From assembly GCA_020444545.1 (NCBI GenBank), contig JAHLKT010000003.1:496001-560000 (forward strand): DNA of 64,000 nt, in the 5' to 3' direction. The position numbers and the translations under genes are program-made. This stretch comes from Desulfarculaceae bacterium (GTDB lineage: Bacteria; Desulfobacterota; Desulfarculia; Desulfarculales; Desulfarculaceae). The notes under the pieces were generated by a model. That model did no database searches and was not told where the DNA came from. It worked only from the letters and a program-made list of their open reading frames with translations. Numbering within the stretch: position 1 is the first letter of the stretch; each line of letters opens with the position of its first letter. Positions 7,608 to 14,214 of this stretch are shown in pieces.

Positions 7608-9326
7608 ATGGCTAAGGACCTTGGCGACCGCCCCTGGTATGGCGATTGGCCCCAGGGCGTGCCCAAGATGATCGATTTCCCCAAGATTTCGCTCTCCGAT
7701 CTTCTTAGGGACACCACCCGGCAACACCCCGACAACAAAGCCATCGTCTTCCTCGACTCGGTGATGACCTACCGGGAACTGGATGACGCGGTGGACCGCG
7801 TGGCCACCTCATTCGACAAGATGGGCCTCAAGAAGGGCGACGTTGTGGCCCTGATCCTGCCCAACTCCTTCCAGTTCGTCATCGCCTTTTACGCCGCGCA
7901 GCGTCTGGGCATGGCGGTCACCGCCATCAACCCCACCTACAAGGCGCTGGAGATCAAGCACCAGCTCAACGACTCCGGGGCCAAGGCCCTGGTGGTGTTG
8001 GACTCGGTGTACGCCGAGGCGGGGCGCATCCTGGACCAAACCGGGATCAAGTACGTCATTGGCACCAACGTGGTGGATTTGGTGAAGATGAGCGGGCTCA
8101 AGAAGTGGCTGGGCAAGAAGCTGGGCAAGATACCCACCGGCCAGCTACCGGCCAACGCGGTGCCCTTCAAGAGCCTCTTGGACGCCGCGCCCAACCCGCC
8201 CGCGGTGGAGGTGGACCCCGTCAACGACATCGCCGCCTTGCAGTACACCGGCGGCACCACCGGCACCCCCAAGGGAGCCATGCTCACCTCCTACAACCTG
8301 GTGAGCAACGCCATCAGCGGCAAGGACTGGATCGGCAAGGACCTGCCCACCGAGACCGGGTGGCTGGGCGTATTGCCCCTGTTCCATGTGTTCGCCATGA
8401 CCTGCTGTATGAACATCGCGGTGGCCACCGGCGGCTTCATGCTGCTGTTCCCCAAGCCGCCCGACACCATGCTGGAGTGGGGCGCCGAGGTGCAGAAATG
8501 GGGCAAGGGCACCCAGCTCTGCATGGCGGGCGTGGCGGTGTTGTTCAACAAGATCAACAACACCGATGGCCTGGACAAGTACGACCTGAGCCCGCTGACC
8601 GTGTGCCTGTCCGGCGCGGGCCCCCTGCCGCGCGACGTGCAGCTCAAGTTCGAGGAAAAGACCGGGGCCCGGGTGGTGGAGGGCTACGGCCTGTCCGAGT
8701 CCAGCCCGGTGGTCACGGCCAACCCCATCGTGGACCCGCCGGGCAAGGAGCGGGTGATGGGCTCCATCGGCCTGCCCTTCCCCAGCACCGACTGCAAGAT
8801 CATGGACATCGAGACCGGCGACACCCAGCTGGGCCTGGGCGAAGACCAGGTCGGCGAGCTGTGCGTCAAGGGCCCCCAGGTGATGAAGGGCTATTTGAAC
8901 CGCCCGGAGGAGACCGCCCGCACCCTGCGCGACGGCTGGCTCTACACCGGCGACATCGCCTACATGAACGAGCGGGGCTGGATCTTCATCATGGACCGGG
9001 CCAAGGACCTGGTGAAGTTCAAGGGCTTCAGCGTGTTCCCCAAGGAGGTGGAGGACTACATGTTCAGCCACCCCGACATCCTCGAGGTGGCGGTGGTGGG
9101 CCTGCCCCATCCCAAGGTGGGCGAGATCCTCAAGGCCTTCGTGGTGCTCCAGCCCGAGAGCGTGGGCAAGGTGAGCGAAGAGGACATCATCGCCTGGTGC
9201 AAGGAGAACATGACCCACTACAAGGTCCCCTCCCTGGTGGAGTTCCGCGACGAGCTGCCCAAGACCATGGTGGGCAAGGTGCTCCGGCGGGTCCTCAAGG
9301 AAGAGGAAGCGGCCAAGGCCGGCTAG
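7608..9326 (+). CDS. Long-chain-type acyl-CoA synthetase (AMP-forming)
   Basis: A 572-residue ANL-superfamily ligase that activates a carboxylic acid to its CoA thioester through an acyl-AMP. The ATP P-loop TGGTTGTPKGAM, the YGLSESSP motif and the hinge/C-terminal segment GWLYTGDIAYMNERGW...DRAKDLVKFKG are all present, with the catalytic lysine region PKTMVGKVLRR near the end. The ATG at 7608 is preferred because AGGAGGAG stands five bases before it. Length and motifs fit FadD-like enzymes. It is a monocistronic unit with its own promoter and terminator. Chain-length preference cannot be read from sequence. Confidence 0.92.
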   Translation: MAKDLGDRPWYGDWPQGVPKMIDFPKISLSDLLRDTTRQHPDNKAIVFLDSVMTYRELDDAVDRVATSFDKMGLKKGDVVALILPNSFQFVIAFYAAQRLGMAVTAINPTYKALEIKHQLNDSGAKALVVLDSVYAEAGRILDQTGIKYVIGTNVVDLVKMSGLKKWLGKKLGKIPTGQLPANAVPFKSLLDAAPNPPAVEVDPVNDIAALQYTGGTTGTPKGAMLTSYNLVSNAISGKDWIGKDLPTETGWLGVLPLFHVFAMTCCMNIAVATGGFMLLFPKPPDTMLEWGAEVQKWGKGTQLCMAGVAVLFNKINNTDGLDKYDLSPLTVCLSGAGPLPRDVQLKFEEKTGARVVEGYGLSESSPVVTANPIVDPPGKERVMGSIGLPFPSTDCKIMDIETGDTQLGLGEDQVGELCVKGPQVMKGYLNRPEETARTLRDGWLYTGDIAYMNERGWIFIMDRAKDLVKFKGFSVFPKEVEDYMFSHPDILEVAVVGLPHPKVGEILKAFVVLQPESVGKVSEEDIIAWCKENMTHYKVPSLVEFRDELPKTMVGKVLRRVLKEEEAAKAG

Positions 9327-9819: not shown

Positions 9820-10998
9820 TTGCTAGCATCCTTAAACAAAGTAAACTTATCTATTCACAGTGGCAAAGCTGGCTTAGGCCTTTACATACACCTGCCCTAT
9901 TGCCCGTCCCGCTGCCCCTACTGCGACTTCAACGCCAAAGCGTATGACCACGGCGAGGCCCGCCGCCTTCTGGCGGGCCTCGCCGTTCATTTGGAGCGTC
10001 TGGCCCCCCTGGCCCAGGGACGAGCCCTGGACACGGTGTACTTCGGCGGGGGCACCCCGGCCATGCTGCCCGCCGCCGCCCTGGCCGGGCTCTTGCGGCA
10101 AGCCCGCGAACTCATCGGCCTGACGCCCCGGGCCGAGGTCTCCCTGGAGGCCAACCCCGGCGCCTTGAGCCGGGGCAAGCTGGCCGCCCTGCGCGCGGCG
10201 GGCTTCAACCGCCTCTCTCTGGGGGCCCAGAGCTTCGACCCCGAATTGCTCCGGGCCATGGGCCGGCGGCATACCCCGGAAGACACCCGCCGGGCCGTGG
10301 CCCACGCCCGCCAGGCCGGCTTCGGCGAGGTGAACCTGGATTTGATCTACGGCCTGCCCGGCCAGAGCGAGGCCCAAGCGGCCGCGGACATCGCCGCCGC
10401 CCTGGATCTGCGCCTGGAGCATCTCTCCCTGTACGAGCTGACCCTGGCCCCGGAGACGCCCTTTGGGCGGCAATATCGGCCCGGCCAAGCCCCCCTGCCC
10501 GGCGACCAGGCCCTGGCGGCCATGGAGGCCCACGCCCTGGCCGCGCTGGAGGACGCCGGGCTGACACGCTACGAGGTGAGCAACTTCGCCCGTCCCGGCT
10601 TCGAGTGCCGCCACAACCAAAGCACCTGGGCGGGCGGCGACTATCTGGCCCTGGGCCCGGGAGCCCACGGCCACCTGGCCGGGGTGCGCTGGGCCTGGCT
10701 GGCCGATGCGGGGGCCTATTGCGACGCCTTGGAGCAGGGCGAGGAGCCCTATGCCTTCCGCGAGGAGCTGAGCCGGGAGCAGCGGGCCCTGGAGCTGATC
10801 ATGCTGGGGCTACGCACCGTGCGGGGCGTGGAGCTGGCCCCCCTGGCCGCCCTGTTGGGCGGCGACCCCCGCCGGGCCTACCCCGCCGCCCTGGCCGAGC
10901 TGCGCCAGCGCGGCTGGGCGGTGATCAAGCAGGGCCGCATCGTGCCCACCGCCCGGGGCCTGGCCATGGCCGACGCGGCCGCCGCCCTGTTCGCCTGA
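9820..10998 (+). CDS. hemW: HemW-like radical SAM protein (heme chaperone family)
   Basis: A 392-residue radical SAM protein with the [4Fe-4S] motif C28-x3-C32-x2-C35 in YCPSRCPYCDF, then GGGTPAM, an EANPG segment, a RLSLGAQSFDPELLRAMGR segment and a NLDLIYGLPGQ segment. The family was long annotated as oxygen-independent coproporphyrinogen oxidase, but proteins with this CxxxCxxCDF form are HemW, which inserts heme into target proteins. The TTG at 9820 is the only reasonable start ahead of the conserved GLYIHLPYC. The first 18 or so codons are AT-rich, unlike the rest of the gene, and the ribosome site is poor, so the N-terminus is uncertain. Confidence 0.85.
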   Translation: MLASLNKVNLSIHSGKAGLGLYIHLPYCPSRCPYCDFNAKAYDHGEARRLLAGLAVHLERLAPLAQGRALDTVYFGGGTPAMLPAAALAGLLRQARELIGLTPRAEVSLEANPGALSRGKLAALRAAGFNRLSLGAQSFDPELLRAMGRRHTPEDTRRAVAHARQAGFGEVNLDLIYGLPGQSEAQAAADIAAALDLRLEHLSLYELTLAPETPFGRQYRPGQAPLPGDQALAAMEAHALAALEDAGLTRYEVSNFARPGFECRHNQSTWAGGDYLALGPGAHGHLAGVRWAWLADAGAYCDALEQGEEPYAFREELSREQRALELIMLGLRTVRGVELAPLAALLGGDPRRAYPAALAELRQRGWAVIKQGRIVPTARGLAMADAAAALFA

Positions 10999-11008
10999 AT
11001 CTCCCCGC

Positions 11009-11039
11009 AAAAAAAGCCCGGACGCCGCAGCGCCCGGGC
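11009..11039 (-). terminator. Terminator ending the exported-paralogue operon
   Basis: Read on the minus strand, a 10-bp stem with one mismatch (11030-11039 with 11016-11025) runs into seven T residues (11015-11009). It may also act weakly for hemW from the other side. Confidence 0.85.
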
Positions 11040-11064
11040 CCGTGGAATATGTGGAGCGCCGGGG

Positions 11065-11457
11065 TCAGCGGCTCAGCTTGTACTTGCCCATGCCCATCTC
11101 GTCGCTGCCGTAGTCGCCTTCAATGGTGTTGCCCTTGACCAGGCCGGTGGTGCCGATGACCAAATCGCCGCATTGCAGGTTGCCGCTGAAACGGTCGCCG
11201 CCCACGCTGGCCGAGGTCACGGTGCAGTTGAGGGTGCCTTTTACGGTGTTGGTGAGCTGGAAGGTGCCGGTGACCACGTTGTGCTCACCTTGCTTAAGGT
11301 CGCCGGTCATGCCGCCGCCCTTGATCTTGCAAGGCTGGCTGGTGCAGGTCCAGGTGCCGCTCCAGTGGCCGCTGACGTCGGGTTCGGCCCACACCGGGGC
11401 CGCCGTGAGCAGCAAGGATAAAAGCAGGCCGAAGATGATCGAGGTTTTGCGGATCAT
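11065..11457 (-). CDS. Exported small cysteine protein, paralogue 5 of 5
   Basis: A 130-residue protein with a signal peptide (about residues 1-24, ending VWA) and a compact mature domain. The domain begins DVSGHWSGTWTCTSQPC, has a second cysteine pair (LNCTV and LQCGD) and ends GMGKYKLSR. The W-x-G-x-W-x-C-x4-C opening and regularly spaced glycines are shared with its four neighbours. The alternating glycine/hydrophobic pattern suggests a small beta-barrel or beta-sandwich with two disulfides in the periplasm or outside. It is the last gene of a four-gene unit, and the terminator follows. No known family is recognised; the function is unknown. Confidence 0.85.
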   Translation of the reverse strand: MIRKTSIIFGLLLSLLLTAAPVWAEPDVSGHWSGTWTCTSQPCKIKGGGMTGDLKQGEHNVVTGTFQLTNTVKGTLNCTVTSASVGGDRFSGNLQCGDLVIGTTGLVKGNTIEGDYGSDEMGMGKYKLSR

Positions 11458-11507
11458 TTTTTCCCTCTAAATTAAGCTTGTCTGGGATGTGGCCGAGGCG
11501 TCCGGCC

Positions 11508-11909
11508 TCAGCGGTACAGCTTAAAGGTGCCTATGCCCAGCGGGCCGCCGTCGTATTCGCCGGTGAAAAGGTTGCCGTCCAGCTTACCGGCCATGCCCAC
11601 GGAGTAGGAACCGCAGGTCATGGTGCCCGCGAACTCGTAGTCGCTGGCCAATACGGCTTTCTTCAGGGTGCAGTTCAAGTTGCCCTTGGCCGTGTCGACC
11701 ATGGTGTAGCTGCCGGTCACGTTGTGCTGGTCATCTTGTTGCAGCCTGGCGGACATGGCGCCGCTGCCCTTGGCGCAGGGCTGTTTGGTGCAGGTCCAAT
11801 TGCCGGTCCAACTCCCGGTGAGGGTGTTGCTCTCGGCCAGGGCCGGGGCCGCGGCCAGGAGCAGGGACAGGGACAGCAACAAAGCGATGATCAAGGCGCG
11901 TTTAGGCAT
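11508..11909 (-). CDS. Exported small cysteine protein, paralogue 4 of 5
   Basis: A 133-residue protein. The start at 11909 is chosen because GGGAGG stands eight bases upstream and it begins the signal peptide MPKRALIIAL to ALA. The mature part opens with TLTGSWTGNWTCTKQPC, carries the second pair LNCTL and MTCGS, and closes with GIGTFKLYR. All four family cysteines are present. It lies 50 bases upstream of paralogue 5 in the same direction. Sequence divergence from its neighbours is large outside the motif, so the duplication is old or evolution is fast. Confidence 0.85.
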   Translation of the reverse strand: MPKRALIIALLLSLSLLLAAAPALAESNTLTGSWTGNWTCTKQPCAKGSGAMSARLQQDDQHNVTGSYTMVDTAKGNLNCTLKKAVLASDYEFAGTMTCGSYSVGMAGKLDGNLFTGEYDGGPLGIGTFKLYR

Positions 11910-11950
11910 GGGGTTCATCCTCCCGCAATATTTGGCTGGGAAACACGGCC

Positions 11951-12355
11951 TCATTTGCCGGTCCGTTCAATCCGGTACATGCCGCTGCCCAGGCTGCCGC
12001 CGTCGAAAGTGCCCCTGAGAGCGCCGTTTTCCAGCAGGCCGTTGAGGCTCAAGCGGTATATACCGCATTGCAGGCCAATTATGGCGCGCTCCCCGATGAT
12101 GCTGGAATGTTCCAGCACGCAGCCGGTGCCGCTCTCGGACAGGCCGGTCATGGTGGCGGCGCCGGTGAGGGTGCCGTCCTCTTTCTGTTTGAAGTCGGCG
12201 GTCATGGGGCCTTTTTTGCCCTTGCAGGGCAAGCTGTCGCAGCTCCAGGCGCCGGTCCAATGCCCGCTGATGTTGGGAAAGGCCAGGGCCGGGGCCGCGG
12301 CCAGCAGCAGGCCCAGAATCATTAGCAGGCCGGCGGTCAGTGCGCGTCTTGGCAT
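11951..12355 (-). CDS. Exported small cysteine protein, paralogue 3 of 5
   Basis: A 134-residue protein with a signal peptide beginning MPRRALTAGL and ending ALA; GAGGGGAG lies six bases before this ATG. The mature protein opens NISGHWTGAWSCDSLPC followed by KGKKG. It keeps a second cysteine pair (TGCVL and LQCGI) and ends GSGMYRIER, with a short extra tail TGK. It is 41 bases upstream of paralogue 4, the closest spacing in the array, supporting cotranscription. Confidence 0.85.
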   Translation of the reverse strand: MPRRALTAGLLMILGLLLAAAPALAFPNISGHWTGAWSCDSLPCKGKKGPMTADFKQKEDGTLTGAATMTGLSESGTGCVLEHSSIIGERAIIGLQCGIYRLSLNGLLENGALRGTFDGGSLGSGMYRIERTGK

Positions 12356-12414
12356 ATCAAACTCCCCTCTCTTCACGTTTGACCCAAAAATAGGGCAAGA
12401 ATCGCCCGCCGGGC

Positions 12415-12807
12415 TCAGCGCCTGAGCTCAAAGGTGCCGCGCCCCAAGCCGTGGGCGATGTAGTGGCCGGAGATGCGGCTGCCGTTCACCGTGCCACTCA
12501 TCCGGATGACTTCATCGCCGCAGGTCAGGAACCCGAAAAAGGTGTTGTCCGAGATGTCGCTGCCCTCGCGCAGGTTGCAGCTCATCAACCGGCCCGTTGC
12601 GTCGGGCAAGAGGTTGAAGCCGCCCCGCAGCTCGCTGCCCTTTTGCCGCACCGTACCGGTTATGCTCCCCTTCTTGCCTTTGCAGGGCTTGGTTTCGCAG
12701 GTCCAGGAGCCCATCCACTGGCCGCTGATGTCGGTTTCGGCCAGGGCCGGCGTGGCGGCCAGGGACAGGGCCAACAGCGCGGCGCACAGAAGCAGCACTC
12801 TTCGCAC
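12415..12807 (-). CDS. Exported small cysteine protein, paralogue 2 of 5
   Basis: A 130-residue protein. The GTG at 12807 (signal peptide MRRVLLLCAAL to ALA) is preferred over the GTG four codons upstream because GGTGGAG is then spaced seven bases away and the start matches those of the other paralogues. The mature domain opens DISGQWMGSWTCETKPC and KGKKG, has MSCNL and LTCGD as the second cysteine pair, and closes GRGTFELRR. It is the first gene of the four-gene unit. The KGKKG loop after the second cysteine is shared only with paralogue 3, suggesting these two are sisters. Confidence 0.85.
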   Translation of the reverse strand: MRRVLLLCAALLALSLAATPALAETDISGQWMGSWTCETKPCKGKKGSITGTVRQKGSELRGGFNLLPDATGRLMSCNLREGSDISDNTFFGFLTCGDEVIRMSGTVNGSRISGHYIAHGLGRGTFELRR

Positions 12808-12950
12808 GGGAATCTCCACCTTTTGGAAAAATCGCCGAATATCACGTCATGAGAGGTTCGCGGCAGGGTGCCCAGGCTAGCATGAAAGGCCCACATCCGC
12901 CAAGCCTTTCTGGCCCCGAGGCGCGGGCTGGAGTCTAGGCCCTTCCCGCT

Positions 12951-12986
12951 AAAAAAGAACGGCCCGGACGGAGAGCCGTCCGGGCC
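12951..12986 (-). terminator. Terminator after paralogue 1 of the exported family
   Basis: A perfect 11-bp stem (12961-12971 with 12976-12986, loop AGAG) is followed on the minus strand by GTTCTTTTTT. It separates paralogue 1 from the four-gene unit downstream. Confidence 0.85.
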
Positions 12987-13016
12987 GAAGAAGCCTTGGT
13001 CGCTTAGCCGGTGGGG

Positions 13017-13412
13017 CTACTTGTCCATGTCAAAGGTGCCCTTGCCCAAGGGACCGTCAAAGTTCCCGTGAACGTGGTTGCCGTTGACGTTGGAGTTGAA
13101 GTTGATGGTGCCCTCGCTGTTGCGGATGTTGCCGTTGAACTGGTTGCCGTTCAGGGTGGCGTCCACGTCGCCGGAGATGTCACCGATGGTGGTGTTCTTC
13201 AGGTGGAAGGTGCCGCCGTAATGGTTGCCACCCTTGGACTGGATGTTGCCGTCCATGCCGCCGCCGGGCTTGTCGCAGTCGGGCGGGGTGCACTTCCAAT
13301 TGCCATGCCAATTGCCGACGATGTCGGGTCCATCGGCCATGGCCGCGGGGGCGGAAACCAGAAGCAGGGCAGCAGCCAGGGCCAGGACACCGAGAATCGC
13401 AAATCTACGCAT
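13017..13412 (-). CDS. Exported small glycine/asparagine-rich protein, paralogue 1 of 5
   Basis: A 131-residue protein with a signal peptide (ending AMA) behind a GAGAGGGA ribosome site. The mature part opens DIVGNWHGNWKCTPPDC like the others. It lacks the second cysteine pair and instead has Asn/Gly-rich repeats (such as NGNQFNGNIRN and NVNGNHVHGNF), closing GKGTFDMDK. The spacing of these NG units suggests short beta strands joined by turns. It is transcribed alone, closed by its own terminator. Probably the same fold as the neighbours but with a changed disulfide plan. Function unknown. Confidence 0.85.
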   Translation of the reverse strand: MRRFAILGVLALAAALLLVSAPAAMADGPDIVGNWHGNWKCTPPDCDKPGGGMDGNIQSKGGNHYGGTFHLKNTTIGDISGDVDATLNGNQFNGNIRNSEGTINFNSNVNGNHVHGNFDGPLGKGTFDMDK

Positions 13413-13591: not shown

Positions 13592-13686
13592 TGGCGGAGA
13601 GGGTGGGATTCGAACCCACGTGCCCCGGTTAAGGGACAACCCGATTTCGAGTCGGGCCCGTTACGACCGGACTTCGGTACCTCTCC
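13592..13686 (-). tRNA. tRNA-Ser (anticodon CGA)
   Basis: A 95-nt class II tRNA with encoded CCA. The acceptor GGAGAGG pairs with CCTCTCC, the T-arm has GGTTCGAATCC, the anticodon stem CCCGA/TCGGG holds the loop CTCGAAA, and a long variable arm is present. It reads UCG codons. A T run follows the 3' end on the minus strand. Confidence 0.95.
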
Positions 13687-13743: not shown

Positions 13744-14214
13744 CTAACGGCGGCTGGCGAAGAACTCCTTGAGCAGAGCGGCGGCCTCCCCGGCCAGAAG
13801 CCCGCCTTGCACCACGGGATGGTGGTTGAGCCCCGGGAGCGCGGCCAGGTCCATCAGCGAGCCGTAGGCCCCGGCCTTGGGGTCCGGGGCCCCGAATACC
13901 ACCCGCCCCAACCGGGCCCACACCACGGCCCCGGCGCACATGGGGCAGGGCTCCAGGGTCACGTAGAGGGTGCAGCCGGTGAGGCGGTAATTACCCACCA
14001 CCCGGGCGGCTGCGCGCAGGCAGAGCATCTCCGCGTGGGCGCTGGGGTCGCAGCGGGTGATGGGGGCGTTGCCCGCCTCGGCCAGCACCCGGCCCTCCTC
14101 GTCCACCAGCACCGCTCCCACCGGCACCTCGCCGGCCGCGCCGGCGGCGCGGGCCTGCTCCATGGCCCGGGCCATGAACCCGTGGTCCTGGGGGCTGAAA
14201 GGCTCGGCGCTCAT
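13744..14214 (-). CDS. tadA: tRNA-specific adenosine deaminase
   Basis: A 156-residue zinc deaminase that converts A34 to inosine in tRNA-Arg(ACG). The signature residues are visible: His60 and Glu62 in SAHAEMLCLR, and Cys90 and Cys93 in TLEPCPMCAGA, which bind zinc and act in proton transfer. ARLGRVVFGAPDPKAGA follows as usual. It begins two bases after the stop of the upstream PurN-like gene, so the pair is translationally coupled. It sits next to a tRNA-Ser gene. Confidence 0.93.
   Translation of the reverse strand: MSAEPFSPQDHGFMARAMEQARAAGAAGEVPVGAVLVDEEGRVLAEAGNAPITRCDPSAHAEMLCLRAAARVVGNYRLTGCTLYVTLEPCPMCAGAVVWARLGRVVFGAPDPKAGAYGSLMDLAALPGLNHHPVVQGGLLAGEAAALLKEFFASRR

Follow-up and report, generated by a model that had tools for sequence, protein, structure and literature searches.

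A tandem array of small exported proteins with a predicted calycin-type barrel fold in Desulfarculaceae

What do five adjoining genes for small cysteine-containing proteins encode in a Desulfarculaceae bacterium, and what might keep five such genes side by side? An earlier note on the 64-kb window (the whole stretch of DNA analysed here) had described five small exported paralogues on the minus strand, each with a signal peptide and a domain of about 105 residues bounded by two motifs, and had been unable to place them in any known family. Below, we follow the array from its gene layout to the predicted fold of its products, and from there to their possible role.

The array and its sister in a related genome

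All five tandem paralogues were confirmed on the minus strand, with coordinates that include the stop codons. Copy 1 (13017..13412, (-)) encodes a predicted exported barrel protein of the two-Cys type (C41, C46), is rich in Asn and Gly, and forms its own transcription unit. Copy 2 (12415..12807, (-)) has a GTG start and heads a unit of four genes, followed by copy 3 (11951..12355, (-)), copy 4 (11508..11909, (-)) and copy 5 (11065..11457, (-)); these four are predicted exported barrel proteins of the four-Cys type. A signal peptide with an Ala-x-Ala type site (SPase I-type) was predicted in each copy, leaving a mature domain of about 105 residues. In all five copies this domain carries G-x-W-x-G-x-W-x-C-x4-C near its start and is closed by G-x-G-x-aromatic. 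The second cysteine pair was found in copies 2–5 and is absent from copy 1, as the earlier note had reported. With copy 4 as the query, a search of the 4.38-Mb genome returned the other four copies at E-values of 3e-29, 7e-25, 3e-22 and 9e-16, and nothing else. The likeness among the five copies is thus far beyond chance.

Strong intrinsic terminators, each with a 12-bp stem and a T-run, follow copy 1 (12960..12987, (-)) and copy 5 (11014..11041, (-)), and therefore point to a layout of one gene plus four. The stretch upstream of copy 2 (12808..12882, (-)) is conserved in a sister array (L056, Desulfarculaceae bacterium Tobar13.5m-G33; a further named locus, L055, belongs to Deltaproteobacteria MAG101). 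Together with the start of copy 2, it matches the sister array at 70% identity over 153 bp (E 3e-15), and in L056 the matching stretch opens with a promoter-like TTGGCA-17-TATCCT site (7686-7714). For copy 2, the GTG at 12807 was preferred as the start codon, since an ATG matches it in the alignment with the sister array. The order in L056 is the same as here: tRNA-Ser(cga), a two-Cys gene, a terminator, a unit of several genes, a terminator and hemW. Thus, the terminators, the conserved upstream region and the sister array all support the 1 + 4 layout proposed earlier.

At the place of copy 2, all that the sister array keeps is the upstream region and a 26-residue signal peptide, MRKEPLLCAVMLAVALVLAASPVLAE, which runs straight into a stop codon (L056 7780-7860). 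The layout of one gene plus several was probably ancestral to both arrays, with one gene all but deleted in one lineage. The bare signal peptide may be a relic of that deletion, or could now serve as an operon leader peptide.

The neighbouring genes mark the place of the array and include no evident functional partner. The hemW-like gene (9820..10998, (+)), a radical SAM gene with a HemN C-terminal domain, is convergent with the array, lies outside its unit and marks the syntenic place. On the other side, a tRNA-Ser (cga) (13592..13686, (-)) flanks both this array and its sister, and a tadA-like deaminase gene (13744..14214, (-)) lies beyond it.

Using a profile of the five copies, full-length members were found in 7 of 8 genomes of one Desulfarculaceae genus, and other relatives outside the genus gave no convincing full-length member; weak matches in two other genera of Desulfarculaceae (L012, L013) were dropped, as they were apparently driven by the signal peptide. 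The consistent taxonomic spread that had been anticipated for a new family is therefore seen, within one genus. Members lie beside hemW in four genomes: five here, four in L056 and a single one in G006 and in G007. Three further genomes of the genus have hemW, with no member found in the stretch around it. Two other species have an orthologue of copy 4 next to hemW (76% and 63% identity), and copy 1 is 64% identical to its orthologue G001_a.

A sequence family of its own, under purifying selection

No Pfam model matched copies 1–5 above the cut-off, and for 16 family members the best Pfam E-values were weak and scattered, with no calycin family (lipocalin, YceI or other) matched. Searches of the family against NCBIfam, PHROGs and PADLOC gave no match, the family profile found nothing significant among PDB sequences, and nothing usable was found in the literature. 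The earlier statement that these proteins belong to no known family thus held for every sequence resource searched. A phage, plasmid or defence origin was also considered and rejected: there were no matches in PHROGs and PADLOC, and none on phages or plasmids. A viral structure library gave no significant match. Within the family, G-x-W-x-G-x-W-x-C is exact in 15 of 16 members (Tyr replaces the first Trp in one), and the C-terminal G-x-G-x-aromatic motif keeps its aromatic residue in 15 of 16.

A wider relative of the domain occurs in larger proteins. The A2 profile also matched the C-terminal parts of exported proteins of 350–450 residues in other Desulfobacterota. When these C-terminal modules alone, with signal peptides excluded, were made into a profile of their own (A5), its comparison with the A2 profile gave a probability of 98.6% (E 5e-16), and the homology held reciprocally: in the array's own genome, A5 found only the array members. 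The domain is sparsely distributed: of 395 genomes sampled from the phylum, 16 (in 12 genera) had a match to a joint profile at E 1e-5. The modules (L035, L036, L038, L039, L121, L122) are thus homologous to the array domain by profile comparison, and differ from it in lying within 350–450-residue proteins, in lacking Cys40/45 and in using, where a cysteine pair is present, a different first position. The N-terminal parts of the module-bearing proteins differ, being beta-helix-like, FG-GAP-like repeats (both judged by eye) or an unassigned part that several share, and a single-domain relative in another Desulfarculaceae genus begins like a lipoprotein. These differing partners and the lipoprotein-like form indicate an exported domain shuffled between proteins. 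Four of the proteins (L036, L038, L039, L121; 350–380 residues, exported, barrel C-terminal) have an N-terminal part in common ("...YIPHLTGG...W.DYLTVDN..."), for which Pfam gave no match above the cut-off.

The earlier note had read the high divergence between copies as typical of proteins facing a variable target. The paralogous domains match each other at E 1e-16 to 1e-29, and orthologues across species are 63–76% identical, compared with 71–80% for hemW and 69–75% for tadA. Nei-Gojobori counts gave dN close to dS for the paralogues and an omega near 1, a value produced by dS saturation and a strong third-position GC bias. A pairwise codon model (GY94-type, F3x4 frequencies) rejected omega = 1 in all 14 pairs (likelihood ratio 19–99). 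Omega was 0.03–0.20 where dS was finite, compared with 0.09–0.21 for hemW and tadA; fits with omega at the lower bound indicate only dS saturation. On these pairwise averages the family is shown to be under purifying selection, its orthologues diverge like hemW and tadA, and the arms-race reading is not supported; simple counting was misleading. The paralogues are simply ancient: the gene family is long-standing and well preserved, and not a weapon that changes fast. In the family tree, copies 1 and 4 are closer to the orthologues of other species than to their array neighbours.

The tree also separates the two/one-Cys members from the four-Cys members by a fully supported branch. Copy 1 had been said to have lost the second cysteine pair. 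Its absence is plain, and its loss is not: because the two/one-Cys members form a separate, well-supported clade and the distant homologues are without Cys80, the pair is no less likely to have been gained in the four-Cys clade.

Predicted fold and the conserved inner face

Single-chain AlphaFold models were obtained for copy 4 (ten rows) and copy 1 (five rows). The two agree on eight successive strands, and most residues from 31 onward have a pLDDT above 90. The predicted fold is a closed, calycin-type eight-stranded up-and-down barrel, an antiparallel simple meander. The models thus support, as a prediction, the small beta-barrel with two cysteine pairs that had been expected of the family. 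Accordingly, the family that could not be placed earlier can be placed in fold, as a predicted calycin/avidin-like barrel, and in sequence it still stands alone; on the models, the array proteins are a new, unnamed sequence family of known fold.

The models were compared with the PDB by Foldseek and VIA-align. The best natural match was a domain of the quinohemoprotein amine dehydrogenase alpha subunit (Z 14.2–15.4; the top score, 15.4, was 1jmx_A, with an rmsd of 2.0 over 99 aligned residues). Cap15 (7n34) scored Z 13–14, designed barrels about 14, and avidins 11–12 (rmsd about 2.0–2.2 over 91–96 residues, up to 19% identity). Since designed barrels match equally well, these scores show the fold class and not common descent with the matched families. 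The likeness to the amine dehydrogenase (1jmx, 1jju) is confined to its beta-barrel domain (Z 14–15, 13–17% identity), which there forms part of a large periplasmic haem enzyme, whereas the array family has no haem motif (CxxCH). With the calycins (lipocalins, fatty-acid-binding proteins, nitrobindin) the family shares the (near) eight-stranded up-and-down barrel, the G-x-W start and a hydrophobic inner face; it differs from them in having no Pfam calycin match, in its shortness (about 105 residues) and in its cysteine pairs.

The first and last strands also resemble those of the avidin family (PF01382). A search of the genome with PF01382 gave no match at E up to 1, and when the family profile was compared with a genuine avidin from the phylum, the probability was 0.7%; on these two results we rejected an avidin-like biotin binder. 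In an alignment anchored on G-x-W, the biotin-binding Asn and Ser of the avidin first strand correspond to Gly36 and Cys40. These two residues occupy the avidin positions in all members, and W34 and W38 are the only conserved inner Trp; the biotin-binding residues are thus absent.

Conservation was mapped onto the strands of the copy 4 model (copy 4 numbering). The conserved face consists of G32, W34, G36, W38 and C40 (strand 1); G50, M52, A54, L56 and Q58; V64, G66, Y68 and M70; G76, L78, C80 and L82 (strand 4); F93, G95, M97 and C99 (strand 5); V104, M106, G108 and L110; F115, G117 and Y119; and G127, F129 and L131 (strand 8). We take this face to be the inner one, given its hydrophobicity and the comparison with calycins. 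The inward positions average 2.6–3.9 bits and are mostly hydrophobic or Gly, with Gln58 as the sole well-conserved polar residue; the outward positions average 1.6–2.3 bits and are variable and polar. The rim loops showed no clear difference (top 2.0–2.9 bits, bottom 2.2–2.7 bits), and a shared ligand mouth at one rim was rejected, the two rims being equally conserved.

Cys80 and Cys99 are predicted to form a cross-strand pair between strands 4 and 5, both pointing inward, as the strand register (76–87 against 92–99) would set residue 80 opposite residue 99. A Cys40-x4-Cys45 bridge is predicted in the loop leaving strand 1. Cys40 is present in all 16 members and Cys45 is absent from a four-member group around L010/L016, so this bridge cannot be general. 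When an exported protein conserves just one cysteine, this suggests a cross-linked dimer or a bound cofactor.

What the barrels may do

Export by signal peptide and the barrel fold are predicted with good confidence. Regarding function, we tentatively favor, at somewhat less than an even chance, an array of exported, soluble, single-domain calycin-type barrels in two transcription units that serve as envelope or extracellular binding modules and have diverged in use. Each barrel would act as a binding module in the periplasm or outside the cell. The conserved Trp, Gly and hydrophobic interior would maintain the fold, perhaps with a small apolar ligand inside, and each copy would owe its particular partner or preference to the freely varying outer strands and rim. 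Old duplications would have produced the copies, and their divergence in use would explain why all were kept. BcnA is reported to be a secreted bacterial lipocalin that captures antibiotics (PMC5350466). BcnA is exported, as is predicted for the array proteins, and shows that an exported antibiotic-capture role exists; its bearing on the array is by analogy. The predicted fold does not by itself show binding, and designed barrels, which have no history, match it equally well; the interior could be filled, and the role of the barrel purely structural.

If the barrels bind proteins and not small ligands, they would serve in adhesion or as inhibitors in the envelope, comparable to periplasmic lysozyme or protease inhibitors, and the variable outer face would set their specificity. 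This is a possible but rather unlikely alternative: outer faces and loops vary around a fixed core, the distant homologues are appended as modules to exported multi-domain proteins, and several diverged adjoining copies would fit several targets, but no known inhibitor family in Pfam was matched, the pairwise averages reveal no rapid evolution against targets, and no protease or lysozyme gene directly adjoins the array. We consider it doubtful that the proteins are abundant periplasmic or surface coat proteins, or stress-stability proteins, without a specific ligand. A single coat protein would hardly account for a unit with four diverged copies, as a coat would favor similar ones, even though the fold alone explains the conservation, and the two Trp and aromatic residues may fill the interior. 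Least probable of all, and quite speculative, is a set of diverged "anticalin-like" envelope capture proteins, in which each copy takes a small molecule or partner of its own and a redox-switchable cysteine pair in the barrel tunes binding.

Equally as doubtful as a structural role is one as accessory periplasmic subunits or clients of a genus-wide MacAB-TolC-like export system, made up of an outer-membrane factor, a PAS-HlyD adaptor, an ABC ATPase and a MacB permease. A single-Cys member directly follows the MacB gene on the same strand in three species; however, these three members form one clade of the tree, which may reflect a single event, and the gap after MacB is some 240–300 bp. The exporter (its adaptor gene) occurs in the same 7 of 8 genus genomes as the family, and the genome without the family is also without the exporter; yet that genome is without a hemW match too, and may be distant or incomplete. 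Moreover, no barrel gene was found at the exporter locus in this genome, G001 or G004 (the G003 contig ends early), and the array is located elsewhere than the exporter.

The efflux loci were noted in their own right. The genus-wide locus lies at L028 94-5357, L065 1042-5288, L066 8984-15078 and L067 1216-7296; its PAS-HlyD fusion is unusual for an adaptor, and in L065 it is preceded by a DsbA/ScsC-like thioredoxin. The members that follow MacB in three species (L016, L011, L017; 1501 onward) have Cys40 as their single cysteine. The array's own genome has a second PAS-HlyD/ABC/MacB operon; immediately before it (L069 2942-4041) are two exported, Cys-rich paralogues of about 175 residues that match nothing in Pfam.

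In conclusion, the array is a caution against taking low paralogue identity in GC-rich genomes as a sign of an arms race. The defined family, together with the wider exported module of Desulfobacterota and its predicted fold, could enter the family databases. With a tandem set, orthologues that keep their position and one gene reduced to a bare signal peptide, the locus offers a clean case of birth-and-death evolution among small exported proteins.
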